From Cyanosarcina radialis HA8281-LM2 (lineage in GTDB: Bacteria > Cyanobacteriota > Cyanobacteriia > Cyanobacteriales > CCAP-1448), in assembly GCA_019359615.1 (NCBI GenBank), contig JAHHHA010000034.1:1-63223 (forward strand): a stretch of DNA of 63,223 bases. Direction: 5' to 3'. Position numbers and translations under genes: made by a program. Positions 7,755-28,938 of this stretch are shown here, in pieces. The notes under the pieces are model-generated. The model was not told where the DNA came from, ran no database searches, and saw nothing but the letters and a program-made list of their open reading frames with translations. Position 1 is the stretch's first letter. Every line of letters begins with the position of its first letter.

Positions 7755-8043
7755 CGCAGAAAAAATTATTTTTATTCTAGTGTGTTGCTCTCCAGCCTAC
7801 ACCTGGGACAGGCTAGAAGCCTATCCCACAAGAATATACTTCACTCAATTGAGAAATGGTATAAACCCGAAGGGAAATGAGTATCTATCAACTTTTAAAA
7901 GAGGTTTATTTGTCGATCGCCAAGTGATGAAGTCAAGAACTAATGGTATATAAATCGCTTTTTGCGGGCAACAGATACCCCAATAATTTTATCTTCAAAC
8001 CTCATCTTTTTAGGTGTAGGATAATTTCCCATTTCATCATCGA
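7755..8043. other. Intergenic region with a hairpin repeat
   Basis: This 289-bp gap holds the hairpin at 7804-7828, listed separately. A 67-codon minus-strand frame at 7940-8143 overlaps the YaaW-like gene out of frame and is not credible. I see no RNA gene. Confidence 0.4.
7804..7828. repeat. TGGGACAGGC hairpin repeat, copy 1
   Basis: Arms TGGGACAGGC/GCCTATCCCA enclose a 5-nt loop and are followed by CAAGAAT. Related hairpins (TGGGAcAGcc...ggCTaTCCCA) occur at 10023-10047, 42315-42341 and 55673-55703, so this is a dispersed intergenic family in the genome. Confidence 0.75.
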
Positions 8044-8892
8044 TCAGGCAAATTCCCAGCATTCCGAGCGGAGGAGGCGAATTTGGGCTAAGTAAATGAT
8101 GGTGGGTACGATCCGACCGTAGTTGGTGGCAATAGATCTCCATCCTAAGTCAGCAAAAAACCAAGCCCACATTACTGGACCGACGAATGCTAAGACACTC
8201 CTGGCCGTGCCGTAACGAGCCGCACTCGCTGCCATTCCCTGTCTTGCTGTCTGAAGGGCTAAGTAGTTTTGAAATTGCGCCGCTGCTGCCGTGCCGCCGC
8301 GCACGATCGCTTCTTTGGCTACTTGATAGCTGGCAAAGTGGAGGGCAAATTGACGGGCAATTTGTTGCAGCACCCATGGTTGAACAATCGAACTGAGGGC
8401 TAAGGCGCTACCACCTTTAACGATCAGACCGACCGGATCGCGCTGGAGTTCTACTGGTAAAGGTTCTTTGAGTTGCGATCGAACTAGCGATTTTTGCACG
8501 CGGGCAGTTATGGCTTTCTTTTCTGCCGCTGGCAGGCGTTTCCAAGTTCGGCCCATTACTCCTAGAAATACTTCTGCTTCTAAATCGGTAGTCGAAAGCT
8601 GATGCGAGTAAGGGATTTTGAGATAGCGACACACTCGAATCAGTGCTTGCCGATAGGTTACTTGTTGAGCGCGTCCTTTTAATACAGTTAAGCCGTCGGC
8701 TGCCAAGAAGCGAAACCGCTGTTCTATAGAATCTAGCCAAGTTTGCCGATCTTGGCTTTGAACTTCTATCGGGTCGGGGGTTTGGACGTAATCTAGAGGG
8801 TTAAACTTGGGGCGGAACAGGATTTCTGTTAGTTCCGTCAACTCCTCATCTGTAGCTAGTTCTAGGGCCGATCGCAGTTCGTCCAAGGTCAA
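8044..8892 (-). CDS. YaaW-like (UPF0174) family protein
   Basis: The 282-aa protein begins with the helical LDELRSALELATDEELTELTEILF and ends with LGWRSIATNYGRIVPTIIYLAQIRL, a stretch I recognise from the YaaW/UPF0174 family. The middle part contains a small hydrophobic Ala/Gly-rich region (about 160-235). No catalytic residues are apparent and the function is unknown. The start ATG at 8892 is the first in frame. It is a single gene on the minus strand. Confidence 0.65.
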   Translation of the reverse strand: MTLDELRSALELATDEELTELTEILFRPKFNPLDYVQTPDPIEVQSQDRQTWLDSIEQRFRFLAADGLTVLKGRAQQVTYRQALIRVCRYLKIPYSHQLSTTDLEAEVFLGVMGRTWKRLPAAEKKAITARVQKSLVRSQLKEPLPVELQRDPVGLIVKGGSALALSSIVQPWVLQQIARQFALHFASYQVAKEAIVRGGTAAAAQFQNYLALQTARQGMAASAARYGTARSVLAFVGPVMWAWFFADLGWRSIATNYGRIVPTIIYLAQIRLLRSECWEFA

Positions 8893-9156
8893 CTTCTCCC
8901 TATGAGTGTAGATGCTGCTGTCCTTTATTCTACTACTGGGCTTTCGCTGTCAACTGTTTTAGCGATACATACTGCATACAGGCTACGCCAAGCCAATTCG
9001 CAATTAACAGTTCACAATTCGCAATTAACCCCATGCCTAAAGGCAATTGCTCTGTATAAGAAAGACATATTTTCTGGGTCTATGGATGAATCCAGTAGCT
9101 CTGAAACCACAATTGCGAATTGCGGATTGCGAATTGACAATTGTTTTGGTCGAGCA
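8893..9156. repeat. Intergenic repeats of the CAATTCGCAATTAACA type
   Basis: This gap between cupredoxin and YaaW-like genes contains several copies and inversions of AATTCGCAATTAAC/GTTAATTGCGAATT (around 8995-9030 and 9108-9142). A similar run occurs at 40215-40250. It contains no credible gene. Confidence 0.6.
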
Positions 9157-9666
9157 TTACGAAACCGTTATTAATCCCGTCATCCCAGCTTCCGTATGTC
9201 CTGGAACCGTACAGCGCAAACTATATTTTCCTGGCTTTAATGGCACGAACAACCATTCGGCATTAGCACCTGGTTTTAGTTCTAGTTCGTGAATTGCTCC
9301 TTTAACTTCCACCTTGCCTGCTTCGACTTTTTGCGTCCAAATGATATCGGCAAAGTCTTTAGCAGTGAAGTAATGCTTCTGAGGGCTGGGATTATCTAGA
9401 AGTAATTTGTAACGCTTGCCAGAGGCAAACTCTAAATCGCTGGGAACAAACTTTAATTCGTTAGTGTTGTTACCCAAGCTAACTTTGACTTCTATTGGCG
9501 CTTGGCGCAGGATCTCATTATTTGGGGCGGCAATGGCTGCTGAACTCAAGCCAGCCATCAAAAGTATCGCTACCGCAACCAGCGCGATCGCCGCCCGATT
9601 AAATTGGCTGTGGATCTGTTGCCGGAATCGCCATAAATTATCGATCGAACGCGCTATGAGTTTCAT
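9157..9666 (-). CDS. Exported cupredoxin (plastocyanin-like type 1 copper protein)
   Basis: This 169-aa protein has an N-terminal basic segment followed by a hydrophobic signal (about 25-47, ending AAIA|AP). The type 1 copper ligands are complete: His98 in PQKHYF and Cys152, His157 and Met162 in RCTVPGHTEAGM. The domain is longer than plastocyanin before the copper loop and resembles the cupredoxin domains of unclassified blue copper proteins. It probably carries electrons or copper in the periplasm or lumen. The gene stands alone; its regulation is not visible. Confidence 0.85.
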   Translation of the reverse strand: MKLIARSIDNLWRFRQQIHSQFNRAAIALVAVAILLMAGLSSAAIAAPNNEILRQAPIEVKVSLGNNTNELKFVPSDLEFASGKRYKLLLDNPSPQKHYFTAKDFADIIWTQKVEAGKVEVKGAIHELELKPGANAEWLFVPLKPGKYSLRCTVPGHTEAGMTGLITVS

Positions 9667-9896
9667 AGTTCCAAAAAATCATTTGTATTAATCTGCCTGC
9701 ATATGTAAATTAAAACACCTGTTGCTAAAATTGTAAGCGATATTTTAGTCTCCGCAGTAATTGAAAATTACTCTGCTTTCAGAGATATAGAGTAGAAAAA
9801 TTTATATAGTAAAATTCGATGCTTAAGGTGGTTTTTAATTAGCTGAAATGCAAATAATTATTGGCTCTTTGCCTAACGAGCGATAATGCTGACAAA

Positions 9897-9948
9897 GCGG
9901 ATGCAAGTCATGGCGAGGGAACCTCGCTATGCAGCTTGCACCAAGCAG
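9897..9948. repeat. GCGGATGCAAG...CTTGCACCAAGCAG dispersed repeat
   Basis: A hairpin-forming repeat with the core GGCGAGGGAACCTCGC. Close relatives occur inside the 10096-10354 element (10165-10262) and inverted at about 37950-38045. Their boundaries keep the same order of sub-blocks, so they move or duplicate as units. Confidence 0.7.
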
Positions 9949-10022
9949 GGAGACGAGAGAGAATTCCCCCCTTTTATGAAGGTTAAGAATTAAATCCGGT
10001 AATTGTGAGATAGCCCTTTGAC

Positions 10023-10047
10023 TGGGACAGCCCAGAGGGCTATCCCA
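10023..10047. repeat. TGGGACAGCCC hairpin repeat, copy 2
   Basis: Arms TGGGACAGCCC/GGGCTATCCCA around a 3-nt loop. It belongs to the same family as 7804-7828, 42315-42341 and 55673-55703. Confidence 0.75.
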
Positions 10048-10095
10048 CAAGAATTACCCAATTATTTTTTTAACTTCCATTAAAGGGGCTAGGGG

Positions 10096-10354
10096 CTACC
10101 GTGTATACATATCTCTGGAAACCTTAGAGACTCTGCATTAGATCCCCCTAGCCCCCCTTGAAAAGCGGATGCAAGCGTGGCGAGGTTTCCTCGCCATACA
10201 GCTTGCACCAAGCAGCGGATGCGCTGTGCGGAGGTTCCCTTCGCATACAAGCGCACCAAGCAGGAGGAAGTTCTCAAAGTCCCCCTTTTTAAGGGGGATT
10301 TAGGGGGATCTTGGTGTGAAACGGCACAATCGATCGCTTATGTATACACGGTAG
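10096..10354. mobile_element. MITE-like element with perfect 15-bp TIRs and 9-bp target duplication
   Basis: The 259-bp element starts CTACCGTGTATACAT (10096-10110) and ends with its exact inverse (10340-10354). GGCTAGGGG stands immediately outside both ends (10087-10095 and 10355-10363), as expected of a target-site duplication. The interior has no gene. It is built of nested repeats: GATCCCCCTAGCCCCCCTT blocks and GCGGATGCAAG hairpins. A second intact copy lies at 52583-52805 and partial copies at 37851 and 49697. It presumably depends on a transposase encoded elsewhere. Confidence 0.8.
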
Positions 10355-10374
10355 GGCTAGGGGAGAGGTCAGAT

Positions 10375-12420
10375 CTAGACGATCGCACCCAAAACTATTC
10401 CCAAGGCGATCGCGCCGCCACCGAGAATGAATCCCCAGAAGCGATGGTAACTCTTGACAGTCGTGCCGCTTTGACTGTCGAGTTGGATCAAATCCATCCA
10501 TGGGGCTACACCGCGCCGGAACCAACCGACAGCACCTACCTGCATCCCGATCAGGCTTTGCACTCGCTTCATGCCAAACAAGAAATTACCAATCGGGCCG
10601 AAGCGAGAAGCATACCGCAGAAATAGCATTCCCGTGCGGTCTTGCAGTTTCAGATCGGAACCGAACGTATAGCCAGCATCGCCGCGACCGATCAATTCGC
10701 CTTGCAATTGGGCGGGTTGCCCGCGCAAAGGACTGGCGTAAGGATCGGACATTAAGGTGAGAACGTCAGACTGGGGTGCTTGCTTGTAGTCTGGGTACAT
10801 CACGAAGGTCTTGACTAAGACCCCAATGCCAAACCCGATGAGCGGGCAAGCCCACAACAAACCAGCTTTAGCCGTACCACCAGAGAGGATAATGCCAATT
10901 ATCAAACCAGCAACTACCCCAATGGTTTCAGCGCCGTAAAGCACGATATCCATGAAGAAGTTACTGTAAAGTCGGCGCTTGTCTAGAGTTTTTCCCTCGC
11001 CGATAATGCGTCCCATGTCGAACTCAGTTTCTAAACCAAGCTGTTCGGCATAGGTGCTGAGGGCGCGAACCCGTTTGCCAGTTAGCGGGTGAGTTGAATT
11101 TAACTCCATCCACCAACCCCAAGGGTTAAACATATCCCACAAGAAAACGCGACCGATTTTGCTGGTATCTGAGGCCACGCGGTAAGCAGTTCCACTAGTA
11201 GCTGCTGCTTTATGGTCGTAGATGCCCAAGGCGCGAGTTCCTTCGATCAGGCGGCTGGGTTCTTTGGCTCGTTTGCCTTCTTCCACGATGCCGTAGGCAA
11301 TCTTGACTAAAGCGCGGGATAAACCGTTAGGATTGCCCGTACTTTCCGCCGCAAAATGGTCGGCAAAGTATTCTCGCGTCCGCGATAGGTACAACACCAT
11401 ATAAGTGCCGATCAGGTAAAAGATGTAGGCAACTAGACCAGCACTCTGGAGGGCATCTCCCAGCTTGTCGCCAGCACTTCTACCTATACGATTGGCAAAA
11501 ACGTAAATTAGATAGCAAATCTGCACTAGAGTTGATGCCACCGTCATCACGGCAAAGTCCCAATGAACTATATGGCCTAGTTCGTGGGCGTAAACCGTGG
11601 CAACTTCATCATCGTCGAGGTAGGTAAACAACCCTTCGCTCACTACCAGACGGGCGGTATTCGGCAGCGAACCGTAGGTAAAGGCTGTGGGGTTCTGGTC
11701 GTCGATAATACCGAGTCGAGGATGCTTCAGTTTTTTCTGTTGGCAGATTTGCTGAATAATTCTGGCCGTTTCTGGACTTTTGCTTTCAACTTCTGCTAGA
11801 GAAACCCAGCGAGTTTGATAAAGCCAGTTTTGGGTTAAGTCCATTAAAAATGGAGATAAGAAAAAGACAGCGGCGTTAAAAATTAAAGTCAAAACGATCG
11901 CCAATGTCAGCCCCAAACCTGGGGTGTCGCTGTTTTGAATTAGGACGATGCCCAAACAAAGGACGAACACCATGCCAAAGAGCAAGCCAATGGTGACAAT
12001 TGAAGCCAGGGCCAGATTGCCTCCTACGCCTGCCATGGCCAACCTGACTCCACCAACAGCAACTCGACCAGCTTTTTGGACCGGACTAGGAGCTTGATAG
12101 TGAGACTGAGGTTGAGGTTCAGCTTGAGGTTGAGGAGTAGGCTTAATAAATGTGGGTATTTGTGTCGGAGTGAGAGATTGCAGGGCTTGTTGTGCCCAGT
12201 TCTGGACTTGAGGAACTCCAGAAGCCGATAGTTGTTGGCATACAGCGATCGCTTTGGGGATATTTCCCAAGGCTTGATACGCTTTCACCAGACTCATTTG
12301 AGCCTGTAGACATTCTTTAGAGCGCAAATCGGGACAACTCGAAGAGAATTGTTCCAGCAATTGCACCGCCTCTTGATAACGCCCTTGGTTTAGGGCTTCT
12401 AATCCTGCTTGCAATGACAT
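10375..12420 (-). CDS. M48-family membrane zinc metalloprotease with N-terminal TPR region
   Basis: This 681-aa protein has three parts. Residues 1-95 are helical TPR-like repeats (GRYQEAVQLLEQF, GNIPKAIAVCQQL). After a Pro/Gln linker come two membrane segments (about 130-200) and the M48 catalytic domain with HELGH near residue 281 and the downstream EYFADHFAAE carrying the third zinc ligand. C-terminal hydrophobic segments (about 490-540) and a soluble part follow. HtpX-like M48 proteases degrade damaged membrane proteins. The TPR extension is a cyanobacterial variant and may select substrates. The stop lies only 21 bp from the MITE. Confidence 0.85.
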   Translation of the reverse strand: MSLQAGLEALNQGRYQEAVQLLEQFSSSCPDLRSKECLQAQMSLVKAYQALGNIPKAIAVCQQLSASGVPQVQNWAQQALQSLTPTQIPTFIKPTPQPQAEPQPQSHYQAPSPVQKAGRVAVGGVRLAMAGVGGNLALASIVTIGLLFGMVFVLCLGIVLIQNSDTPGLGLTLAIVLTLIFNAAVFFLSPFLMDLTQNWLYQTRWVSLAEVESKSPETARIIQQICQQKKLKHPRLGIIDDQNPTAFTYGSLPNTARLVVSEGLFTYLDDDEVATVYAHELGHIVHWDFAVMTVASTLVQICYLIYVFANRIGRSAGDKLGDALQSAGLVAYIFYLIGTYMVLYLSRTREYFADHFAAESTGNPNGLSRALVKIAYGIVEEGKRAKEPSRLIEGTRALGIYDHKAAATSGTAYRVASDTSKIGRVFLWDMFNPWGWWMELNSTHPLTGKRVRALSTYAEQLGLETEFDMGRIIGEGKTLDKRRLYSNFFMDIVLYGAETIGVVAGLIIGIILSGGTAKAGLLWACPLIGFGIGVLVKTFVMYPDYKQAPQSDVLTLMSDPYASPLRGQPAQLQGELIGRGDAGYTFGSDLKLQDRTGMLFLRYASRFGPIGNFLFGMKRVQSLIGMQVGAVGWFRRGVAPWMDLIQLDSQSGTTVKSYHRFWGFILGGGAIALGIVLGAIV

Positions 12421-20414: not shown

Positions 20415-21056
20415 TCACTTGACCTTAGTTAACGTTCCCAGACGGGTAAAGCGAATTTCAATGCGTCGCCGCGTCCGATCCGGCTCCCGCTGGGCTGAAG
20501 CGAATTTACCGTTTGGTAATATTAGCTGTCCGGCTGAATAGGCTCGAAAATTCAGTCTTTTTAATCTGCCTTTCTGAGATTGAATGTCGCGCAATACTCG
20601 CACGACTGCCAAAGCTCGCGTCAATCCTAAGTCAGCATTAGAGCCTGATTCTAGACTGCTGACGGGAATTTCTCCATTAGCTGCTTTCTCAATATTTACA
20701 TCTAGATTGCTCTCTGAAGTAGTGCTAGGTTGACCGTCTGTATGGCCGATGACCTCTACGACATCAATCTGATACTGCTGGGCGTTTTTTTCAATTTCAG
20801 GTACGATTTTCTCCCGAATATAATTATTCATTGCCGGGGGAACTTCGGCGCTACCGGAGGCAAATCGATAAGTTTTTTCATCTTCAATAATAATAATTGG
20901 TGGAATCTTCTCGTTAATTTGTGAGAATGCCGACCTCAGAGTAGCTAATAACAAAAGTAAACCGAAGATCAAAAATGCGTTGGCCATTAAGTCTGTAAAA
21001 GCAGGCCAGACATTTAAATCTTCATGGCGATCGCGGTAACGTGAATGTCGGCTCAT
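20415..21056 (-). CDS. MotB/ZorB-like OmpA-domain protein (stator component)
   Basis: The 213-aa protein has a short cytoplasmic N-terminus, one membrane segment (about 22-42) beginning PAFTDLMANAFLIF, and a C-terminal OmpA-like peptidoglycan-binding domain (GHTDGQP, RALAVVRVLRD, AQREPDRTRRRIEIRF). Asp22 of the FTDLM motif sits where MotB and ZorB have the ion-carrying Asp. With the MotA-like protein encoded just upstream it should form an ion-driven 5:2 type motor anchored to the cell wall. There are no flagellar genes here, and cyanobacteria lack flagella, so it drives something else. It is the last gene of the tubulin-like cluster. Confidence 0.85.
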   Translation of the reverse strand: MSRHSRYRDRHEDLNVWPAFTDLMANAFLIFGLLLLLATLRSAFSQINEKIPPIIIIEDEKTYRFASGSAEVPPAMNNYIREKIVPEIEKNAQQYQIDVVEVIGHTDGQPSTTSESNLDVNIEKAANGEIPVSSLESGSNADLGLTRALAVVRVLRDIQSQKGRLKRLNFRAYSAGQLILPNGKFASAQREPDRTRRRIEIRFTRLGTLTKVK

Positions 21057-21180
21057 AAGAATACAGAAGTTCAGAAGTTCAAGCTTCGGCTACGCTCAGC
21101 TTAAAGGAGTTCAGGAGTTCAGGAGTTCAGAATGTCAGTTGTCAATTGTCAGTAGTTAATTTTCTCCTCTGCCCCTCTCC

Positions 21181-21247
21181 TTCCCCATCTCCCCATCTCC
21201 CCATCTCCCCATCTCCCCATCTCCCCATCTCCCCATCTCCCCATCTC
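21181..21247. repeat. Tandem octamer repeat (CCCCATCT)n
   Basis: About eight perfect octamers fill the gap between the MotB-like and MotA-like genes, next to an AGGAGTTC/AGAAGTTC repeat (21060-21130). The MotA-like stop lies five bases downstream of the array. Confidence 0.9.
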
Positions 21248-21251
21248 CTCT

Positions 21252-22556
21252 TTATTCCTCATTTTTGCGATCGTCAATTGAGAAATCTATTTTAGTAAAA
21301 TCATTGATAAATTCTTTCATTTTATCGTCTACAATCTCGCCAATATTTTGAGGCATTTCATCTAATTGTTCGACAGCAGATTGAACGTTTTGAGCTTTTC
21401 TTTGGAGTTGATTGAGGATATCATTTAGAGAATGATGGTTGATTTGATATAACTCAGAAAATTGCTCTGATATTTTCACGATAAAACCGATCTCTTCTTC
21501 GATCGATCGCACCGATTGCGATAAGGTAGTAACTTCTTCAAATGAAGATGATAATTTTTTTGCTGATTCCGAAAATTTATGTTGTGTAATTGTTAGATTA
21601 GTAGTCGCTTCTAATAGCTTCTGGGGTACGGTAGTGCGTTCAAAGGTTTGAGAAGCTTGCTCGAATCTGTCGGTACTTCTCATCAAAGCAGCGATCGCAT
21701 TTTCAAAAGCAGTAATAGCATATTTGAGTTCGTCGGCACTTCTGGCGATCGTACTAGAAGATGATTTGAATTCGCTGTAGACTTGAATTGCAAGCTCCTG
21801 AGATTGCTGATTTAGATCGACAATTTTCTGAATATTCTCTCCTAGAGATCGCTCTACTGCATCTCGAACGGTATCGCCAAATCTATATAAAAAACTGCTA
21901 AACTCATTTACTAGTCGATCGACTCCTTTATCTATCCTAGTACGACCTGGCAAGCTTGGTTGATAAACATTATCGAGATAATCTTCTAAAGCAGTCAGAA
22001 GTTGATGTTTGGCAGCACCAGTATTAAATAAAAAGTTAACTAAGGTGAGAATAGCACTAAAACCAATAGCAATTAAACTAGTAACAAAGGCAATTCCCAT
22101 GCCTTGAAGTGGTTTTTGTAATTCTGGCAATAAACTATTAAAATTGTTAACTTGAGTTTGCCCGATCGTTTGACTGAGGGCAGAAAGATTGATAGTAATA
22201 CCTAAGAAAGTTCCTAACAGTCCAAACGACAGTAATAAGTTAGGCAAGATCCGGCAAAAGTAATCGATTTGTTCGCAAGCTATCCACCCAACTTTTTCTT
22301 GAGAGTAAACGCGATCGATTAAAGCGCCGCTATTAACTTGTTCTAAATGATTGCTAGCTTCTTTATAGTTTTCTTCTAATTCCACTAAAATTCTAGGTAT
22401 TCTCCCAGGAGATCTGCCATTCAGTATCCTTCTGAGGATCTCTGCCCTAATCGCCAGATATCGGTAGAGAATAAACCGTAAGATTACCGCCGCGATCGAT
22501 GGTAAAACTATACAGACGGCTAAGAGAACGATTAAATAGGTTGGGATTGGTGGCAT
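21252..22556 (-). CDS. MotA/TolQ/ZorA-like channel protein with long coiled-coil tail
   Basis: This 434-aa protein has an N-terminal membrane segment (about 5-27) and two more (about 108-128 and 155-182) that match the MotA/TolQ/ExbB core: LLLSFGLLGTFLGI and GMGIAFVTSLIAIGFSAIL. After residue 200 it is soluble and almost entirely heptad-like helix up to 430 (DTVRDAVERSLGENIQKIVDLNQQ ..., QLQRKAQNVQSAVEQL). A MotA core with a long cytoplasmic helical tail is the architecture of ZorA in Zorya defence systems, although ZorA is longer. It is encoded between the tubulin-like and MotB-like genes. I infer an ion channel whose tail reaches a cytoplasmic partner, plausibly the tubulin-like protein. 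Confidence 0.85.
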   Translation of the reverse strand: MPPIPTYLIVLLAVCIVLPSIAAVILRFILYRYLAIRAEILRRILNGRSPGRIPRILVELEENYKEASNHLEQVNSGALIDRVYSQEKVGWIACEQIDYFCRILPNLLLSFGLLGTFLGITINLSALSQTIGQTQVNNFNSLLPELQKPLQGMGIAFVTSLIAIGFSAILTLVNFLFNTGAAKHQLLTALEDYLDNVYQPSLPGRTRIDKGVDRLVNEFSSFLYRFGDTVRDAVERSLGENIQKIVDLNQQSQELAIQVYSEFKSSSSTIARSADELKYAITAFENAIAALMRSTDRFEQASQTFERTTVPQKLLEATTNLTITQHKFSESAKKLSSSFEEVTTLSQSVRSIEEEIGFIVKISEQFSELYQINHHSLNDILNQLQRKAQNVQSAVEQLDEMPQNIGEIVDDKMKEFINDFTKIDFSIDDRKNEE

Positions 22557-22579
22557 GATAAAAAGTCAAAAGTCAAAAG

Positions 22580-22828
22580 TCAAAAAACAATCATTTGCTT
22601 TTCGATAGCCTCCTTAAGCGAAATCTGTAGTTTATGAATAAGGTCTGCTGAACTTTCTCCTGCTCTTGACTCTTCAACATTAGCTCCTATAGATGTTCCA
22701 GAGCGAAGTAATTGTTTACCTAAATCTCGTTTAACGCTAGGTGTTTCGCTCAAAAAGCTACAGAGATTAACAATTCTGACAGAAAACTCAAAAGTCCGCT
22801 CGCAAATATCAAAAGGTTTTTCAGACAT
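22580..22828 (-). pseudogene. Four-helix-bundle protein (S23/IVP type), C-terminally truncated
   Basis: Eighty-two residues remain of the roughly 115-125-aa four-helix-bundle family (TIGR02436-like): DICERTFEFSVRIVNLC, LGKQLLRSGTSIGANVEESRAGESSADLIHKLQISLKEA. The frame then runs into AAAAGTC repeats (22561-22583) and ends EKQMIVF, so the fourth helix is lost. The same heptamer also lies before the gene (22848-22874). The gene is thus a repeat-bracketed insertion inside the tubulin/MotA cluster, and probably not functional. Confidence 0.65.
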
Positions 22829-22874
22829 TAAATATCCTCCTATTTTTTAACTTTTGACTTTTAACTTTTGACTT

Positions 22875-25800
22875 TTATAAGGGATACTTCTCAAAGATTT
22901 CTTGGCGGAGACGCTCGAATTCTTCCTCAGTCATCAAACCGTCTTCTAAATCTTGTTTGAGTTGTTGGAGTTCGATCCGTCGTTTAGCTCGGTTATCGCC
23001 AGCAGTTACCACAGAATCGACTACGAGTTCGGCAGGAATTAATCTGGGAGTAGCAGGATTTGGTTCTGAGAAATCTTTTAATTGCTCCTCTATTTTTTTG
23101 CGAAAGCGATCGATCGCTCCCTCTTTACCAAGAATCTCTGAAGTTCCGCGAATTGTGACTACACTGGCTCTATAAGGATAGTTTGGATCTTCTTCCAATA
23201 ATCGATCGACTTGAGTGACGAATTGCCGCAACAGCGGTAAGTATTTTTCTTGCCAGAGGTGAGGGTTGGCTTCGATTTTGGCGATCGCATCGTCTAATAT
23301 TCTTTTTAACCCCTCATTTATATCCGGTCGATGCACCAGTTCTTCTAATGCCTGATTCCACACTGGGCTGAGAGAGGCGACGCTGTAGGTATCTCTGAGA
23401 TCGTCATAATATTGAAATTCTAACTCCTGGCTTTCTGGGTTTTGTTTTATTAGCTCGAAGGCCAAACTCGGATAAAAAACATCCTCTAATTCTTCCATCG
23501 TTTGAGCGTCGGGCGGTAGAATGTCAGCATAGAGAACATTATAGTTGTTGTGCAGAAAAGAAACCGCAGAATTCTTTTCTCGCAGATAGGGATTGCGCAT
23601 TTGCTCTAAGCCGTCGATCAATCTCAAAGGAAAACCTGCATACTCAGTGACGATGACGATTTCGTCTTCCGATTGAGTCGGTTTGAGCATACTTTCAGCA
23701 ATGCCTAATTCCCGTCCCAAAATAGCTTTGAATTGCCGTACCTCTTGCTCGTCAGTATCTTTAAATCCGACCAATTTACTCCCTTTTGCTGGGGTGCTGT
23801 GGAAATATGGATCGCTCAAATTGAGGCGCAACATCGGTTCGGCTTCCTGCATGATTTGGGCTAGCCGAGTCGATCGCTCTAAGGGAGAATATTTGTGCAT
23901 TAAACGCTTGATTACCGACTTGATAATTGTCGTACTGCGAGAACCAAATAAGCGATCGACTGTGAGGGCGATTTGCTTTTGCAATTGCTCTTGAGTGATT
24001 TGTTCTCTCAGGGTATGTCCGTAGTATTCCTCGTGGTTGATAAAGCTACTAAGAGATTCTCCCTTACCCGATGGTTCTGTTAGTGCTGAGCTTAACAATA
24101 CTAATTGCGATCGAAATTCATTCGGTGGCAACAAGGTGTTGTAGCAACTTTCGATATCTTCGTTATCAAAAATCGCCTCGCCACTCATTTCATCGAAATT
24201 CAATTGCTTGAGTTCAGCTTCTTCTTTTTCATACTCGTTTTTGAGTTTATCTATCAAGCTGCTAAAAGCTGCAACTTGAGTTGAGAGATATTGCACGTGT
24301 TTTTGCAAAGCACTGACAATTTGTAGCCCTTCTTGCAATACTGCTAAGTCAAAGTTATGCTTGAACAGATCGCTAATTTCCCGCACAAATCTTTTGGCTT
24401 CCGATTGAATTTGGTTGTTTTTGCCGAGAGGGACAATTTTCTTTTCGATATCCTCAACAATTTGCTCGAAATCCCGCAACTTTCTTTCTACCGTTTCCGG
24501 TCGCTTCATGCCACCAAAATTCGTAATCTTTTCTTGGAGATTGCGGAGATCGATCCCTAAATCTGTTTGCAGGGCATCTAACCAAGTCCGAGCATTTCTA
24601 ATCGAGAAATTGACATCACTCGGAGAAAGTAAAGCTCCGAGGAAATCATCGATATTTTGTTTGAGTTGTTCGATAATGTTAGGTCTGATTTGTTGCAGCC
24701 TGGTCAGCCAAATACCCCTAGTGCTTTCTGTTTCTCCGGGTTGGATTTTGCGAAACTGCTCGCGAAACTCTCTTTGCAATTGCTGGCGAATGCTCAGACG
24801 TTCCTCTTTAGTTTTGCACTCCGCGATCGGTCTTTCGATCTTATTTCGCCAAGCGTTAATAGTGCTGGAAAAATTCTTGTTAGATTCTTGTACCGCTTCG
24901 GCAATTTTAGTAGTCAATCCTTCCCTTTGGACTAAATCGGTATGCCAGCGATATTGAATCAAAAACTGTTCCAGCAATCTCTGCGGATCGGGACTTTGCC
25001 CTTCCCCATTGGCCCAAAAATTCACCAACCTGAAACTAATTTTAGTTAAGGCAATTTGGACGATAACATCGCGAGGAAAATAAACTGCTGCTAAGCCAAA
25101 GGTTAAGTAACGCTGAACGTTAGGCCGGGGGTGGTTGTCCCATTGCAACATATGTTGCAGAAAATTATCCCTCATGCCCTTAACTACAGGCGCAATTTCC
25201 CCAGAAAAGTCTAAAGCAATCTTATGAGCGATTACGTTAGCAATTTTACTTTGATCTAGAATTGAATATTCTCCAGCGGTTTGGTGAGACACCAAATAGG
25301 CATAATCAAACGGCGGTCGTTCTTCTTGCACGATCGTCACGTTTTGCATATCGTAGCAAGCTTCAAACCGAGTTCCGGGAGTAGTGTAGTGATTTAGTTC
25401 TTTTAAAGCCGCATAAGTGTTGGCACTCATATTCGGAGTGTTGCCATATAATACCGGACTAACTACTAAATAGCTGACAATTTGAGCGCCGCGATCGCCA
25501 TAAGCTTTTCTCAGACTGTAGGCGACATCTAAAAACATCCCGCTGCCAGTTCCACCGCAGAGAGAACCGACAATAAAAATGTTCAAACCCGGTTCGACTC
25601 GCAACCCAGATTTGAGTAAATTGCCATCGTGTCCCCTAGTCCGGCGTTCGGCAGTTTCGATCGCTGCTTGAATTTTTTTATAGTTGTGAAAAAACGCCAA
25701 TCTGCCTACAGGTCTAATCCCTTTAGCGCCTTCTTCTACCGCTTTGATATTCCGCAATAATTGGGGTGGAAACCAGATACCAATATGATCGTATGGCCCT

Positions 25801-26132
25801 TGGCGATCGCCAGACGATCGACGTTCTAATTCCTGCACGAAATTAGTTACTTCCGGCGAAGTCATGGTAGCGTTAACTTTTTCCGACTCCCGAAAACTCA
25901 GATCGACACCGTGATAAGTGCTTCCCGTCCGCAAGCCCGATACTTGCGATGCGGCTTTATCGGTATCGATGTAGACGAAACTAACGATTGGGAGCTTATT
26001 TAAATCTCCGTAGCGATCGACAATTAATCGTCGAATTCGCATCAAAATATCTCGGCCCGTACCGCCCAATCCTATACAAATACTGCGATTGATTCCTCGG
26101 AATTGGCGTTCGTTACTAGTTGCTTGAGTCAT
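22875..26132 (-). CDS. Large tubulin/FtsZ-like GTPase (Tubulin_2 type)
   Basis: The 1085-aa protein begins with a Rossmann-like domain carrying GLGGTGRD (21-28) and the tubulin/FtsZ signature CGGTGSGM (192-199), with PIVSFVYIDTDKAA between them. These are the nucleotide-binding loops of the bacterial tubulin-like family (PF13809-type). The 500-residue middle region is strongly helical and charged (LRDFEQIVEDIEKKIVPLGK, LIDKLKNEYEKEEAELKQL). The end, LKQDLEDGLMTEEEFERL, is a SHOCT-like short domain often used for oligomerisation. No membrane segment is seen. It is co-directional with vWA upstream and the MotA/MotB-like pair downstream. Whether it polymerises is unknown. Confidence 0.85.
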   Translation of the reverse strand: MTQATSNERQFRGINRSICIGLGGTGRDILMRIRRLIVDRYGDLNKLPIVSFVYIDTDKAASQVSGLRTGSTYHGVDLSFRESEKVNATMTSPEVTNFVQELERRSSGDRQGPYDHIGIWFPPQLLRNIKAVEEGAKGIRPVGRLAFFHNYKKIQAAIETAERRTRGHDGNLLKSGLRVEPGLNIFIVGSLCGGTGSGMFLDVAYSLRKAYGDRGAQIVSYLVVSPVLYGNTPNMSANTYAALKELNHYTTPGTRFEACYDMQNVTIVQEERPPFDYAYLVSHQTAGEYSILDQSKIANVIAHKIALDFSGEIAPVVKGMRDNFLQHMLQWDNHPRPNVQRYLTFGLAAVYFPRDVIVQIALTKISFRLVNFWANGEGQSPDPQRLLEQFLIQYRWHTDLVQREGLTTKIAEAVQESNKNFSSTINAWRNKIERPIAECKTKEERLSIRQQLQREFREQFRKIQPGETESTRGIWLTRLQQIRPNIIEQLKQNIDDFLGALLSPSDVNFSIRNARTWLDALQTDLGIDLRNLQEKITNFGGMKRPETVERKLRDFEQIVEDIEKKIVPLGKNNQIQSEAKRFVREISDLFKHNFDLAVLQEGLQIVSALQKHVQYLSTQVAAFSSLIDKLKNEYEKEEAELKQLNFDEMSGEAIFDNEDIESCYNTLLPPNEFRSQLVLLSSALTEPSGKGESLSSFINHEEYYGHTLREQITQEQLQKQIALTVDRLFGSRSTTIIKSVIKRLMHKYSPLERSTRLAQIMQEAEPMLRLNLSDPYFHSTPAKGSKLVGFKDTDEQEVRQFKAILGRELGIAESMLKPTQSEDEIVIVTEYAGFPLRLIDGLEQMRNPYLREKNSAVSFLHNNYNVLYADILPPDAQTMEELEDVFYPSLAFELIKQNPESQELEFQYYDDLRDTYSVASLSPVWNQALEELVHRPDINEGLKRILDDAIAKIEANPHLWQEKYLPLLRQFVTQVDRLLEEDPNYPYRASVVTIRGTSEILGKEGAIDRFRKKIEEQLKDFSEPNPATPRLIPAELVVDSVVTAGDNRAKRRIELQQLKQDLEDGLMTEEEFERLRQEIFEKYPL

Positions 26133-26148
26133 AATTTCAGAAGCTTTG

Positions 26149-26241
26149 GAAGTGTTAAGTGTGGAGTGTTGAGTGTGGAGTTACTAGTTGTTATTTTCTC
26201 CGCCCTCTATGCCCTATGCCCCATGCCCTATGCCCCATGCC
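26149..26241. repeat. STRR (TGTTGAG-type) plus CCCTATGCCCCATG repeats
   Basis: The gap between vWA and tubulin-like genes is filled by GTGTTAAGTGTGGAGTGTTGAG heptamers and by alternating CCCTATG/CCCCATG units that run up to the vWA stop. Every gene junction of this cluster contains a different tandem repeat. Confidence 0.75.
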
Positions 26242-27411
26242 CTATTTTTTCACTTGAATAGAAAACTCAAAATCTCGGTGGTTAGCGTTGGGACAATTAA
26301 TTCTCACCAGGGAACCAGATATGGGAGTGCGTTTTTCAATTTCTCTACCATTACAATAGATCGGTGCTAAATGGGTTGGCACGAGATACAAACGCTGCCC
26401 TTGGCGCTCTAAATATGCCCTGACTTCCGCCCCAGGACAATCTATAGCATCGACACAGCTAGAGTCATATTCGCCGATCGCAATTCGTTGGTGGTTTGGC
26501 AAGTAACAGATTTGCTCCTCGTCTTTTTCGGTTGACTCAAAATCTACTACAATTTGCCACTTTTTCCGCAATTTAAGTAATTTAGCGATCCCAAACCCCA
26601 AAGCGATCGCGACTGCAAGCAACCCTGTAGCTGGCAGCCATAGCTGTTTCAGAAGATAAGGGTTGACCAAACAGGTTTCTTGTCCGCCTGGGGCTGGAGT
26701 GCAAAATTCTTGGACGGTGGGGAGAACGTCTACTACTGCTAGCTGATACTCCCGCTGGCCGCTGCCAGAGATAATTAGAGATCTTTCGCGCAACGGCAAA
26801 GCTTGCAGCCAAGCCTGACGCTGTTGGCTGGGAAGGGAATCGGCGACGCGAAAGGGACTTTGAGCGGGCGTTTCCGTCCAATCGGCCCCAGATTTGCTAA
26901 ATAAGGGTGCGTCGGTAATCCAAACCACCGATTGCGACTTAATGGGGAGATTTTGTTGCAAGCGGTCTTGATTGAGTTGAGCCAGACTTCGATAGATGGT
27001 GAGTTCGGCTAACTCGATATCGGTCTGACGGAGATTGAGATCGGGCTGAAATGGGATGGCGGCGAGAATGCGATCGAGATCGTTTGTTTGCCCGCTAAAA
27101 GCAAAAGCTTGCTGTGGGGCTATCGGATTGACATTTGGCGAGAGGGGATTGACCGTAGCCGCAAACGGCACGACATATACTGAGTCTCCTGCTTGCAGGC
27201 TGTCTTGGACGATTTGCCGCAGTCGCAAGCGCCCTTCATCGTTCAACCCCACGCTTTCTGTCAGATCGATCGCCAGCACTACATCGCGCCCCCCATATAA
27301 GCGGGCGACTAATGCTAAACCCGTTTGTTGTTGGGGGCTGAGCGGTTGTCCGGGAGTAACTCTGGCTGGTGTCACAGATAAAATTGCCTTATTACTCAAT
27401 ATTGTACCCAC
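26242..27411 (-). CDS. von Willebrand factor A protein with one membrane segment
   Basis: This 389-aa frame has a vWA domain (about 42-245) with the metal site DLTES (Asp49, Thr51, Ser53; Thr in place of the usual first Ser) and SVVWITDAPLF as the later strand. A membrane segment (about 258-280) follows, then a beta-rich C-terminal domain (CYLPNHQRIAIGEY, IYCNGREIEKRTPISGS) of FHA-like or ubiquitin-like size. The start is GTG at 27411, directly after an in-frame stop, and there is no signal peptide. In the neighbouring frame just upstream (27412-27502) a GTG begins a peptide with the hydrophobic core KLLFFLSGLS, so a frameshift may have cut off the signal. It probably passes ligands or signals to the tubulin/motor proteins. 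Confidence 0.75.
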   Translation of the reverse strand: MGTILSNKAILSVTPARVTPGQPLSPQQQTGLALVARLYGGRDVVLAIDLTESVGLNDEGRLRLRQIVQDSLQAGDSVYVVPFAATVNPLSPNVNPIAPQQAFAFSGQTNDLDRILAAIPFQPDLNLRQTDIELAELTIYRSLAQLNQDRLQQNLPIKSQSVVWITDAPLFSKSGADWTETPAQSPFRVADSLPSQQRQAWLQALPLRERSLIISGSGQREYQLAVVDVLPTVQEFCTPAPGGQETCLVNPYLLKQLWLPATGLLAVAIALGFGIAKLLKLRKKWQIVVDFESTEKDEEQICYLPNHQRIAIGEYDSSCVDAIDCPGAEVRAYLERQGQRLYLVPTHLAPIYCNGREIEKRTPISGSLVRINCPNANHRDFEFSIQVKK

Positions 27412-27627: not shown

Positions 27628-28938
27628 ATGAGCATCCTAGATGATATCTACAATCAGTTTGACCCTTCTCCTTTACCTGCTGGTTCTAAGTTGTACGTCG
27701 ATTGCAGGGAAGTGCGGGGCGGTAGCGATATTTTGGTAGAACTGGGGAGTAAGATTCAGCGATCGCACAAACCCACCTGTCAGCTATACACGGGACATCG
27801 AGGTTGCGGCAAATCTACCGAACTGCTGCGGCTGGCAAACGATTTAGAGCAAAAAGGCTGTCAAGTGGTATATTTTGCGGCAGAAGATGGGGATATTAAC
27901 CCAGAGGATGTCGAATACACCGATATCTTGCTGGCGTGTACCCGACACTTGTTAGAGAGTTTGAAAACTGCTAATTCCAAACCAGTTTTAAGCTGGCTGC
28001 AAGATCGCTGGCAATCTCTCAAGGAGATATTGCAAACTGAAATCATGCTGGACAATGCCTCAGCCGAGTTGCAAATTCAACAATTTGCCAAGATTGCTAC
28101 TAATATTCGCACCCAACCCAGTCAAAGGGCAAAGCTACGACAGTTGCTCAACCCCCACACCGAAAACCTGGTGACTGCCCTCAACCAATTTATTGCCGAT
28201 GCCAAGCAGAAGTTGCCACCAGGGAAAAGCAAATTAGTGGTAATCGCCGACGGACTAGATAAAATTCCTTTGACCATGCGGGATGGAGGACGCACGAATC
28301 ATGACGAAGTTTTTATCGATCGCAGCGAACAACTGAAGGCTCTCGATTGTCACGTTATTTATACCGTGCCGATTTCTTTAGTTCTATCTAGCCGTGCCAC
28401 CGACTTGACAGAAATCTATAACTGCAATCAGCAGATTTTACCTGCGATTATGGTGCAAACTCCAGACGATCGGCCTCATGAAATCGGAATTCAAAAACTC
28501 AAGGAAATTCTGAGATCGCGAGTGTATGTCTTAGATGCAGTCAGAGGGCTAAAGATGGAAACAGAAATTTTCGACCATCCAGATACATTGCGTCAATTGT
28601 GTTTGATTAGCGGTGGTCACGTCCGAAATTTAATCCTGTTAGTGCAAACAGCGATTGACTACAATGAGGATGACAAGCTGCCGATTCAAGCTGCATCGTT
28701 ACAACGGGCAGTCAGCAAACTGCGTAATACCTATCGCATCACGGCGAATGACGACCAATGGGCGTTGTTGGCAAAGGTGCATCGAACTAAGCGGATTCTT
28801 AACGACGATCGCCACCGGAGTTTGCTATTTAATCGTTGTCTGTTGGAATATCAGCAAGATGAAACTTGGCACGACGTACATCCAGTGTTGCGAGACGTTC
28901 CAGAATTTAAGGAAGCTTTAGCTCAATTGTCACCATGA
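27628..28938 (+). CDS. P-loop ATPase (STAND/KAP-like AAA+), unknown role
   Basis: The 436-aa protein has Walker A GHRGCGKST (56-64) and a Walker B-like LVVIADGLDKI (203-213). A sensor-like strand (CHVIYTVPISLVLSS) and a C-terminal helical part (SGGHVRNLILLVQTAI; RAVSKLRNTY) follow. The arrangement fits signal-transduction AAA+ ATPases. It is transcribed divergently from the vWA/tubulin cluster with 216 bp between starts, and is followed by a pseudo-ATPase/TPR gene. Divergent placement suggests shared regulation. The last 13 codons also read in frame into repeats only after the stop, so the 3' end is intact. Confidence 0.8.
   Translation: MSILDDIYNQFDPSPLPAGSKLYVDCREVRGGSDILVELGSKIQRSHKPTCQLYTGHRGCGKSTELLRLANDLEQKGCQVVYFAAEDGDINPEDVEYTDILLACTRHLLESLKTANSKPVLSWLQDRWQSLKEILQTEIMLDNASAELQIQQFAKIATNIRTQPSQRAKLRQLLNPHTENLVTALNQFIADAKQKLPPGKSKLVVIADGLDKIPLTMRDGGRTNHDEVFIDRSEQLKALDCHVIYTVPISLVLSSRATDLTEIYNCNQQILPAIMVQTPDDRPHEIGIQKLKEILRSRVYVLDAVRGLKMETEIFDHPDTLRQLCLISGGHVRNLILLVQTAIDYNEDDKLPIQAASLQRAVSKLRNTYRITANDDQWALLAKVHRTKRILNDDRHRSLLFNRCLLEYQQDETWHDVHPVLRDVPEFKEALAQLSP

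Follow-up and report, generated by a model that had tools for sequence, protein, structure and literature searches.

A conserved cyanobacterial four-gene unit encoding an FtsZl1/Tubulin_2 protein, a ZorAB-like motor pair and a vWA-like protein

The window, i.e. the whole stretch of 63,223 nucleotides of Cyanosarcina radialis HA8281-LM2 DNA analysed here (contig JAHHHA010000034.1), carries a four-gene unit in which a tubulin relative is encoded together with the two subunits of a ZorAB-like ion motor and a vWA-like protein. This composition is well supported. The four co-oriented reading frames lie on the (-) strand between positions 20415 and 27411, where the initial annotation had placed them, in the 5'->3' order vWA-like gene (the first of the unit), FtsZl1/Tubulin_2, motor A and motor B (Table 1). 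The motor and the tubulin-like protein may be coupled, and we give roughly even chances to the four genes forming a single machine across the envelope, which would be an FtsZl1 subtype equipped with a motor.

Table 1. Features of the four-gene unit (positions in the window)
Feature	Position	Strand	Basis
vWA-like protein, 389 aa	26242..27411	-	ORF; 5' of the tubulin gene in relatives; DxTxS
MIDAS-like motif DxTxS, vWA-like residues 49-53	27253..27267	-	D49, T51 and S53 in 25/25 relatives
FtsZl1 / Tubulin_2 protein, 1085 aa	22875..26132	-	PF13809; predicted model
Tubulin T1 loop region GLGGTG, residues 21-26	26055..26072	-	G21, G23, G24 and G26 in 30/30 aligned relatives
Tubulin T4 signature CGGTGSG, residues 192-198	25539..25559	-	G193-G198 in 29-30/30 relatives
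Candidate T7 catalytic loop DFSGE, residues 308-312	25197..25211	-	Model placement and conservation
Predicted helical insertion in second tubulin domain, about residues 376-783	23784..25007	-	Model; boundaries are our reading
ZorA/TolQ/ExbB-type motor subunit (motor A), 434 aa	21252..22556	-	PADLOC ZorA1, PDB profile search, model, fold searches
T116 in GLLGTF motif, motor A pore-lining helix	22209..22211	-	44/44 relatives
ZorB/MotB-type subunit (motor B), 213 aa	20415..21056	-	OmpA Pfam sub-threshold, ZorB1, PDB 8vvn_B
D22, presumed ion-carrying aspartate of motor B	20991..20993	-	36/36 relatives

The tubulin-like protein belongs to FtsZl1, a branch of the tubulin superfamily that is among its most divergent. 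It matched Pfam Tubulin_2 with an E-value of 1.8e-108 and 363.4 bits against a cut-off of 27, and the two nucleotide loops reported in it initially are conserved, the T4 loop presenting G193, G194, T195, S197 and G198 in 30/30 aligned relatives and G196 in 29/30. The predicted model (pLDDT 84.6, pTM 0.68) has CetZ 3zid_B as its best match in VIA (Z 23.9, rmsd 3.8, 301 residues aligned, 16% identity) in an alignment covering residues 14-857, and CetZ/tubulin chains were aligned across ranges from 14-854 to 14-876. The centre of the protein is an extended helical/coiled-coil region, with model helices from about 383 to 763. The model suggests a complete two-domain fold, common to CetZ and tubulin, to which FtsZl1 adds a helical insertion of about 400 residues in the second domain. 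Such a whole tubulin fold makes FtsZl1 polymers plausible, and the protein, with its conserved loops, may bind GTP and polymerise.

The motif DFSGE, located around the break that separates helices 294-310 and 314-328 of the model, is a candidate T7 loop, its placement being our reading of the model rather than a residue-level structural alignment. Among 30 relatives, residue 308 is an aspartate in 26 and a glutamate in 3, F309 is found in all and E312 in 27. An hhalign comparison of the FtsZl1 family with the genome's own FtsZ covered 129 columns, up to residue 229 (probability 8.8%, E 0.0038), and the T7-like motif therefore depends on the model.

Motor A gave no match to Pfam MotA_ExbB up to E 0.1, and matched PADLOC ZorA1 with E 6.1e-17 over residues 102-397. 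Its AlphaFold2 model, in which residues 1-200 are mostly above pLDDT 90, presents three membrane helices followed by a helical cytoplasmic tail, the helical prediction continuing for about 250 residues past the last membrane helix at low model confidence. With this model, ZorA, ExbB and TolQ lead in Foldseek, where 8qyd_A is the top row with E 7.1e-3 and probability 0.99 and none is at E <=0.001, and rows 1-23 of VIA-align are all TolQ/ExbB/ZorA with Z of 9.5-11.1, under the level considered safe for helical models. In the PDB profile search two designed helical bundles outrank ZorA; the best stretch is the tail for 8qyd_A (ZorA, E 1.2e-6) and the membrane core for 8vvn_C (E 1.1e-5) and 8qyk_A (E 7.1e-4). 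The core is of the TolQ/ExbB type. T116, which we take to be the counterpart of the ExbB/TolQ pore threonine, and S160 are invariant in 44/44 relatives and may face the pore. A flagellar stator was considered and rejected, the fold being nearest to TolQ/ExbB/ZorA and the first flagellar row, PomA, appearing at rank 30 in VIA-align (Z 8.4); we know of no flagella in cyanobacteria.

Motor B combines an N-terminal membrane helix with an OmpA-like, putatively peptidoglycan-binding domain. It scored 21.9 bits against OmpA Pfam, under the 27.2 cut-off, and matched PADLOC ZorB1 (E 1.7e-8) and 8vvn_B of the ZorAB structure (E 2.2e-6). The ZorAB-like layout proposed from the sequence is supported. The earlier reading had also hinged on an ion-carrying aspartate in the MotB-like segment; D22 of FTDLM is invariant, and a loose xSDL-type pattern is found in 99/99 ORFs, a redundant set, in which the profile covers the N-terminus. 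D22 is presumed to be the ion-carrying membrane aspartate, and motors A and B would form a 5:2-type ion motor. Membrane motors of this type drive flagella, nutrient uptake and one phage defence. A ZorAB-type motor across the inner membrane would set the OmpA domain outside and the tail inside.

The label 'vWA' is the weakest of the four, resting on the DxTxS motif and on weak matches of VWA_2 to 6 of 25 relatives (best E 0.0062); Pfam gave none for the protein from the window. A whole-protein profile found nothing better than E 1.4 in the PDB. The gene identities first given thus stood for the tubulin, motor A and motor B, and for the vWA protein to the extent of that motif and those matches. 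Membrane spans in the unit were assigned by eye and from the model; in the vWA-like protein a single span, seen by eye near residues 257-280, is followed by positive charges and a C-terminal domain of about 105 residues. The topology cues of this protein conflict, no signal peptide being visible by eye in any of the 25 sequences, whereas C237 and C247 are invariant (25/25) and positive charges stand past the span.

The distribution of the genes was determined in a 146-genome even draw of the phylum, taking E < 1e-50 for full-length Tubulin_2 and E < 1e-20 for motor A. Of 35 Tubulin_2 genes, 22 adjoin motor A, one has a motor elsewhere in the genome and 12, belonging to Tubulin_2 clades other than the window's, are without a motor. 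In the window's own clade a motor gene lies no more than 9 kb from 83 of 86 tubulins, which supports the physical linkage proposed at the outset; the opposite pattern, a tubulin gene normally found without the motor, does not apply to this clade. Retention of the unit in cyanobacteria is mostly clade-wise. It occurs in Microcystis, Cyanothece and Chamaesiphon, which are non-filamentous, and many named loci are from filamentous cyanobacteria, in a list biased to the window's relatives. Among 16 genomes of one genus, motor A gave a long match in 11, a short fragment with five stops in one and none in four.

As a synteny control, we compared pairs of complete loci whose tubulins are less than 45% identical (n = 672). 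Homologous motor A and vWA-like genes are shared by 672/672 pairs and a homologous motor B by 667/672; of up to six flanking genes, one or more have a homologue in just 34/672 pairs, the commonest flank family being found at 14 of 74 loci. Considering that flanking genes are so rarely common to diverged loci, the four genes are a real conserved unit, beyond chance neighbourhood. A PADLOC scan of 123 flanking genes, from 21 of 25 chosen cyanobacterial loci and with no control set, revealed no clear defence island; 46 families matched at E 1e-10, of which 25 are listed in 1-5 genes each. The matches listed include methyltransferase and other defence models, several of them (mad3, mad8) generic in our judgement.

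Six of the 30 genomes with motor A lack full-length Tubulin_2, and a seventh has motor A on a different contig from a Tubulin_2 of another clade. In a quick FastTree, which has long branches and 38 weak forks, these orphan motors are separate from the majority of operon motors (2 changes for the operon label and 2 for the orphan label, any additional motor copy of an operon locus being counted as operon). They cluster with each other, unscattered among the operon motors, and their origin as decayed operons is not supported. The absence of full-length Tubulin_2, together with this separate position, indicates that the motor can function without this tubulin. At three orphan loci, where Pfam named five neighbours, no common partner was seen.

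Outside the cyanobacteria, the tubulin-motor-OmpA order is present at 4/4 Deinococcus plasmid loci, with very diverged motors. The cyanobacterial motor A profile detects these motors with whole-protein E-values of 5e-16 to 2e-13, and hhalign of motor A with a Deinococcus-only alignment covered 70 columns at 33% identity (E 1.4e-7, probability 94%). For the OmpA-like protein the cyanobacterial profile detects 1/4, and motor B aligned with one Deinococcus protein over no more than 20 columns (E 0.0058, probability 6%). On three Thermales plasmids, related Tubulin_2 genes are found close to brxL, the one such locus scanned, from Meiothermus, also having HmaC and PDC-S01 matches. Neither annotation nor a motor-core profile found a motor at the Thermales loci, where one weak match is to the tail only, and their defence context is therefore that of another branch. 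The kinship of the cyanobacterial and Meiothermus 'vWA' partners is unsupported, with an hhalign probability of 0.6%. Carriage of the cyanobacterial unit as phage or plasmid cargo was also discarded: motor A has no tblastn match on plasmids at E 1e-5, and viral matches concern the tubulin gene only, namely one distant phage record and one viral contig that codes for an FtsZl1 relative and on which the other three genes were unmatched in the 17 kb examined.

The claim of an undescribed system stands in part. In the available sections of Makarova & Koonin 2010 (PMC2875224), operons of the same tubulin family, FtsZl1 (Tubulin_2), with vWA and OmpA partners are described, cyanobacteria forming one FtsZl1 clade, and the OmpA-family partners are labelled membrane transport or outer-membrane proteins. 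The window unit has this arrangement, common but not universal in the family, with an OmpA match below the Pfam cut-off and a vWA assignment from motif and weak matches. These sections report that neither the T6-H7 elements nor a second tubulin domain could be detected, and they name neither a MotA/TolQ/ExbB-type protein nor an ion motor; the window unit encodes a protein of that type. Tubulin/vWA conflict systems centred on GTPases were predicted by Kaur et al. 2020 (PMC7159879) and resemble the unit in having a tubulin with a helical/coiled-coil C-terminal part and a membrane vWA neighbour, but GAP1/DO-GTPases and FNIII proteins form their basis. The main text of that paper does not contain the words MotA, ExbB and TolQ, and neither TRAFAC/DO-GTPase nor GAP1 was seen in eight window proteins with Pfam, whose models are general rather than dedicated. 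We found no ion motor as a partner of an FtsZl1 system in the published literature; the tubulin relative was thus known before, and the motor partner seems to be new.

The motor pair is like ZorAB (PDB 8qyd, 8vvn), for which the accessible part of PMC11890865 describes a TolQ-like core extended by a long helical tail in the cytoplasm, a MotB-type partner with a membrane aspartate and an OmpA domain, and the importance of peptidoglycan binding, tail and ion flow for function. The long helical tail of ZorA (here modelled at low confidence) and the OmpA-type ZorB are both present. Nevertheless, membership in Zorya was rejected. Motor A is below the cut-offs of curated NCBIfam ZorA models (bits/cut-off 31.4/190, 30.5/100, 30.2/500 and 24.1/250), the best score far under, and PADLOC gave no match named ZorC/D, ZorE or ZorF/G in the eight window proteins between 19947 and 32116 (for ZorF/G as far as the library covers them). 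Where Zorya adds ZorC/D, ZorE or ZorF/G, the window unit has a GTPase of the tubulin family and a vWA-like protein. In the TolQ-linked systems of PMC12204202, too, a vWA protein has a genetic tie to a motor of the TolQ type; tubulin does not appear in the available main text, and in one of the two families the vWA protein substitutes the MotB-type partner, which the window unit keeps.

Our preferred explanation, to which we give an even chance, is that a wall-anchored 5:2 ion motor senses the state of the envelope, as in Zorya, and that it gates or drives an assembly of the tubulin-like protein tethered to the membrane. Five motor A subunits would encircle two motor B subunits, which would hold peptidoglycan through the OmpA domain; displacement or damage of the wall would permit ion flow, and the motor would turn or shift. 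The long bundled tails of motor A would relay this motion into the cytoplasm and act on FtsZl1, which would bind GTP and form head-to-tail assemblies at the membrane, with the vWA-like protein tethering or licensing it. By analogy with ZorAB, the likeliest purpose would be surveillance of envelope disturbances, including phage entry, with the tubulin-like assembly replacing a nuclease. Filament formation and a part in defence, stress or motility, as the initial annotation had it, are inferred, as is the coupling. The readings considered here overlap, and their likelihoods are not shares of one whole.

A stand-alone anti-phage system of the tubulin/vWA conflict type (PMC7159879), in which assembled FtsZl1 is itself the toxic or blocking effector, appears somewhat unlikely: the prediction of such systems, the ZorAB-like pair, the patchy motor A within a genus and the Tubulin_2 relatives near brxL speak for it, but the brxL-side loci show no motor by annotation or by the motor-core profile, so that their defence context is that of another branch, the 123 flanks gave no clear defence island, and Pfam and NCBIfam scans found no known toxic domain in the window genes. 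That same patchiness is odd for a core shape system and, with the lack of any widely kept neighbour gene, weighs against membrane remodelling of the kind proposed from gene context in the available text of PMC2875224. Here FtsZl1 polymers, plausible given the whole fold, would shape the inner membrane while motor and OmpA domain anchor or energise them against the wall, with no surveillance or defence; in spite of the mostly clade-wise retention, we hold this to be unlikely. Very unlikely, in our view, is a cytoskeleton-motor that produces force for movement over surfaces or for adhesion between cells, in which the ion motor would move the tubulin-like assembly or the vWA protein. It would agree with gliding by 5:2 motors and the force-transducer role proposed for TolQ-linked vWA proteins (PMC12204202, available portion) and with the many filamentous hosts in our biased list, but the unit is also found in Microcystis, Cyanothece and Chamaesiphon, with a counterpart on Deinococcus plasmids, its flanking genes are not widely conserved and the vWA-like protein has no signal peptide visible by eye.

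Within the preferred explanation of a wall-anchored motor acting on FtsZl1, a more specific form, in which the rotary motor directly drives or gates polymerisation and the bundled tail, turned by ion flow through the 5:2 complex, nucleates, pulls or severs FtsZl1 polymers at the membrane, is doubtful and rather improbable; if true, it would, as far as we know, connect the stator-type motor superfamily directly with a tubulin-like cytoskeleton for the first time. If coupling is true in any form, an ion motor and a tubulin-like assembly cooperate in bacteria. The motor partner makes the role of the FtsZl1 system open to test. In one cyanobacterial genome, all four genes stand together at three distant places.

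The positions given in the initial annotation for the four open reading frames were confirmed, and all of them lie on the minus strand. Pfam MotA_ExbB does not match motor A of the window. The host genome contains a single Tubulin_2 gene and a single PF00091 gene, the latter presumably its FtsZ, and three PF01618 genes outside the window motor pair; because these three sit elsewhere in the genome, the pair in the window counts as a distinct motor, and a divergent one. Facing the unit is a gene for a divergent AAA-type ATPase (27628-28938), without a homologue in the flanks of any of the other 73 complete loci, i.e. loci with the tubulin gene and all three partners within 9 kb.

Positions, strand and matches of the genes of the unit in the window
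Gene	Position	Strand	Remarks
vWA-like	27411-26242	minus	ORF; first in order
tubulin-like	26132-22875	minus	ORF; second; Pfam Tubulin_2, E 1.8e-108
motor A	22556-21252	minus	ORF; third; PADLOC ZorA1, 6.1e-17
motor B	21056-20415	minus	ORF; fourth; ZorB1 match, 1.7e-8

The model of the tubulin-like FtsZl1 protein, built from a 30-sequence alignment, has a pLDDT of 84.6 and a pTM of 0.68. Foldseek returned tubulins and CetZ as best rows (E ~1e-5), and VIA-align placed CetZ 3zid_B first (Z 23.9, rmsd 3.8, 301 of 342 residues aligned, model range 14-857), followed by CetZ and tubulin rows with Z of 21.0-23.4 and ranges up to about 876. Since the aligned residues flank a long helical stretch on both sides, the modelled protein can be read as having both domains of the tubulin/CetZ fold in full, plus an insertion at about 376-783. 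In the 2010 paper on FtsZl1/vWA/OmpA operons, the T6-H7 elements and the C-terminal domain similarity of FtsZl1 were described as not identifiable (PMC2875224). The DFSGE motif is located around the break that separates model helix 294-310 from helix 314-328; position 308 is acidic in 29 of the 30 aligned sequences and E312 is found in 27. We propose this motif, placed by aligned ranges and not by residue pairs, as a candidate T7 loop. The hhalign alignment of the FtsZl1 family with FtsZ stops short of it.

The AlphaFold2 model of motor A (44-sequence alignment) is confident for the core (residues 1-200) and less certain for the helical tail. The Foldseek search gave ZorA 8qyd_A as top row (E 7.1e-3, probability 0.99), then further ZorA and ExbB chains, with no row at E 0.001 or better. 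With VIA-align, every row from 1 to 23 was TolQ, ExbB or ZorA, with Z of 9.5-11.1; as values below 13 are possibly ordinary for helical models, the agreement among the rows, together with the sequence evidence, carries more weight than the Z score. Against the PDB, the motor A profile matched ZorA 8qyd_A at 1.2e-6, most strongly in the tail; for ZorA 8vvn_C, matched at 1.1e-5, the membrane core gave the strongest stretch. Two designed helical bundles outrank ZorA, through the tail. The motor B profile matched ZorB 8vvn_B (2.2e-6, positions 8-119). D22 of motor B is conserved in 36/36 aligned sequences, and T116 and S160 of motor A in 44/44.

In an even draw of the phylum (146 genomes, gene places read off match lists), Tubulin_2, motor A and motor B matched in 35, 39 and 36 genomes, respectively (E 0.001). 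Among the 35 Tubulin_2 genes at E < 1e-50, 22 adjoin motor A and 12 are in genomes without it; for the remaining one, that of genome G054, the motor lies at a distant place of the same genome. At E < 1e-20, motor A is found in 30 genomes. It adjoins Tubulin_2 in 22 and stands apart from it in G054; in G111, motor A and a Tubulin_2, which belongs to another clade, are on separate contigs, and six genomes have no full-length Tubulin_2. G054 keeps all four genes, split over three distant places (L040, L163, L164). With motor A as the gene searched, matches were obtained in 12/16 genomes of one genus, one being a short fragment with five stops, and in 20/40 of a set of relatives.

A genome scan yielded 79 named loci, all cyanobacterial, from the best 80 of 535 matches. 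Further regions and the window were added, and three kinds of entry were taken out: the short loci L002-L030, copies with identical residues 100-700, and tubulin ORFs below 700 aa, which are split or cut genes. This left 101 loci. All three partners lie within 9 kb in 74 of these, which is not a rate because relatives of the window are over-represented; 17 have none and 10 have some, mostly at contig ends. The FastTree phylogeny places all 83 tubulins that have a motor gene, A or B, within 9 kb in a single group of 86 (support 100), whose three exceptions are L040 of G054, L082 on a contig of 3386 bases, and L124 of Geminocystis, where no motor is present in the 20 kb searched. The remaining 15 Tubulin_2 rows are without motor.

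The 74 complete loci were compared in pairs, binned by tubulin identity, together with up to six flanking genes. Below 45% identity, 672/672 pairs share homologous motor A and vWA-like genes and 667/672 share motor B, against 34/672 for any flank; at 45-60%, the values are 964, 964 and 947, with 27/964 for the flanks, and above 75% all three partners are homologous in 166 pairs and any flank in 69/166. As these loci were picked for having all partners and the pairs are non-independent, the control informs on the flanks, not on partner frequency.

Neighbours of motor-less Tubulin_2 genes were scanned at five loci (10 proteins). L031 adjoins chemotaxis-type genes and L063 a VWA protein; at L062 none of the scanned neighbours could be named. 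L058 and L032, of motor-less clades, have another set of partners, with periplasmic binding proteins (PBP-like, Peripla_BP_6) as neighbours. The motor pair apart from Tubulin_2 is seen in eight cyanobacterial regions of eight genomes (L157-L162, L165, L166), with no obvious common partner; one of these genomes, G123, has the operon too.

By its composition, the four-gene unit is well supported as a subtype of FtsZl1 systems that bears a motor: the genes, their linkage and the key residues are shown, as is the fold by model. Its stoichiometry, ion flow, tail-FtsZl1 contact, polymerisation and purpose are what we infer. For ZorAB, the motor pair of the Zorya anti-phage system, ion flow and binding to peptidoglycan are described as important, and so is the tail, which is proposed to recruit the effector (PMC11890865). 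By analogy, the mechanism of the unit would most likely be modelled on ZorAB, with an FtsZl1 assembly in the role of cytoplasmic partner of the motor. As purpose, surveillance of envelope damage would be our first choice. Plausible rivals are a unit that only remodels membranes, one that acts as a stand-alone effector of defence and one that serves surface motility, and as the four readings overlap, their odds need not sum to 1. We found no FtsZl1-ion motor link in the open-access literature, preprints lying outside the search. The motor gene may nevertheless be already listed, without name, in the supplementary files of PMC2875224, which contain its unnamed associated families.

A search of plasmid records with the tubulin-like protein of the window returned 11 Tubulin_2 matches, and ten of these regions, all except Azospirillum brasilense, were viewed. 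All four Deinococcus loci, which are close relatives from one genus and not independent cases, have the order Tubulin_2, motor-A-like gene, OmpA-family gene; in D. radiophilus the tubulin gene is split by a transposase gene. The cyanobacterial motor-A profile detects the four motor-A-like genes (whole-protein E 5e-16 to 2e-13), one of which is annotated MotA/TolQ/ExbB. The motor-B profile detects one of the four counterparts (7.8e-4), and the SDL membrane motif is kept in all four. The tubulins are 23-25% identical to that of the window across the matched third. After these genes, at 12682-17668 of L149 and the matching places of L151-L153, comes a large gene, LRV/DUF2336-like in L149, and next to it one whose annotation is beta-helix protein or kinase; the unit may be larger in Deinococcus.

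No adjacent motor was seen at the two Azospirillum loci and the Cylindrospermopsis locus viewed. Three loci on Thermales plasmids (L147, 7306-15383; L155, 6381-15473; L156, 6404-14363) have the order vWA, Tubulin_2, an unnamed hypothetical gene of ~680 aa and brxL, with a transposase gene intervening before brxL in L155. The Meiothermus locus, the one scanned, matched HmaC (DUF499) and PDC-S01. These loci may represent a form of BREX/Hma-like defence locus that includes a tubulin; the word tubulin is absent from the main text of a 2026 BREX survey. Additionally, a predicted viral contig from IMG/VR (L167) encodes an FtsZl1 relative at about 7845-11285 (E 7.8e-124), and the 17 kb covered gave no match to the motor, OmpA-like and vWA-like profiles.
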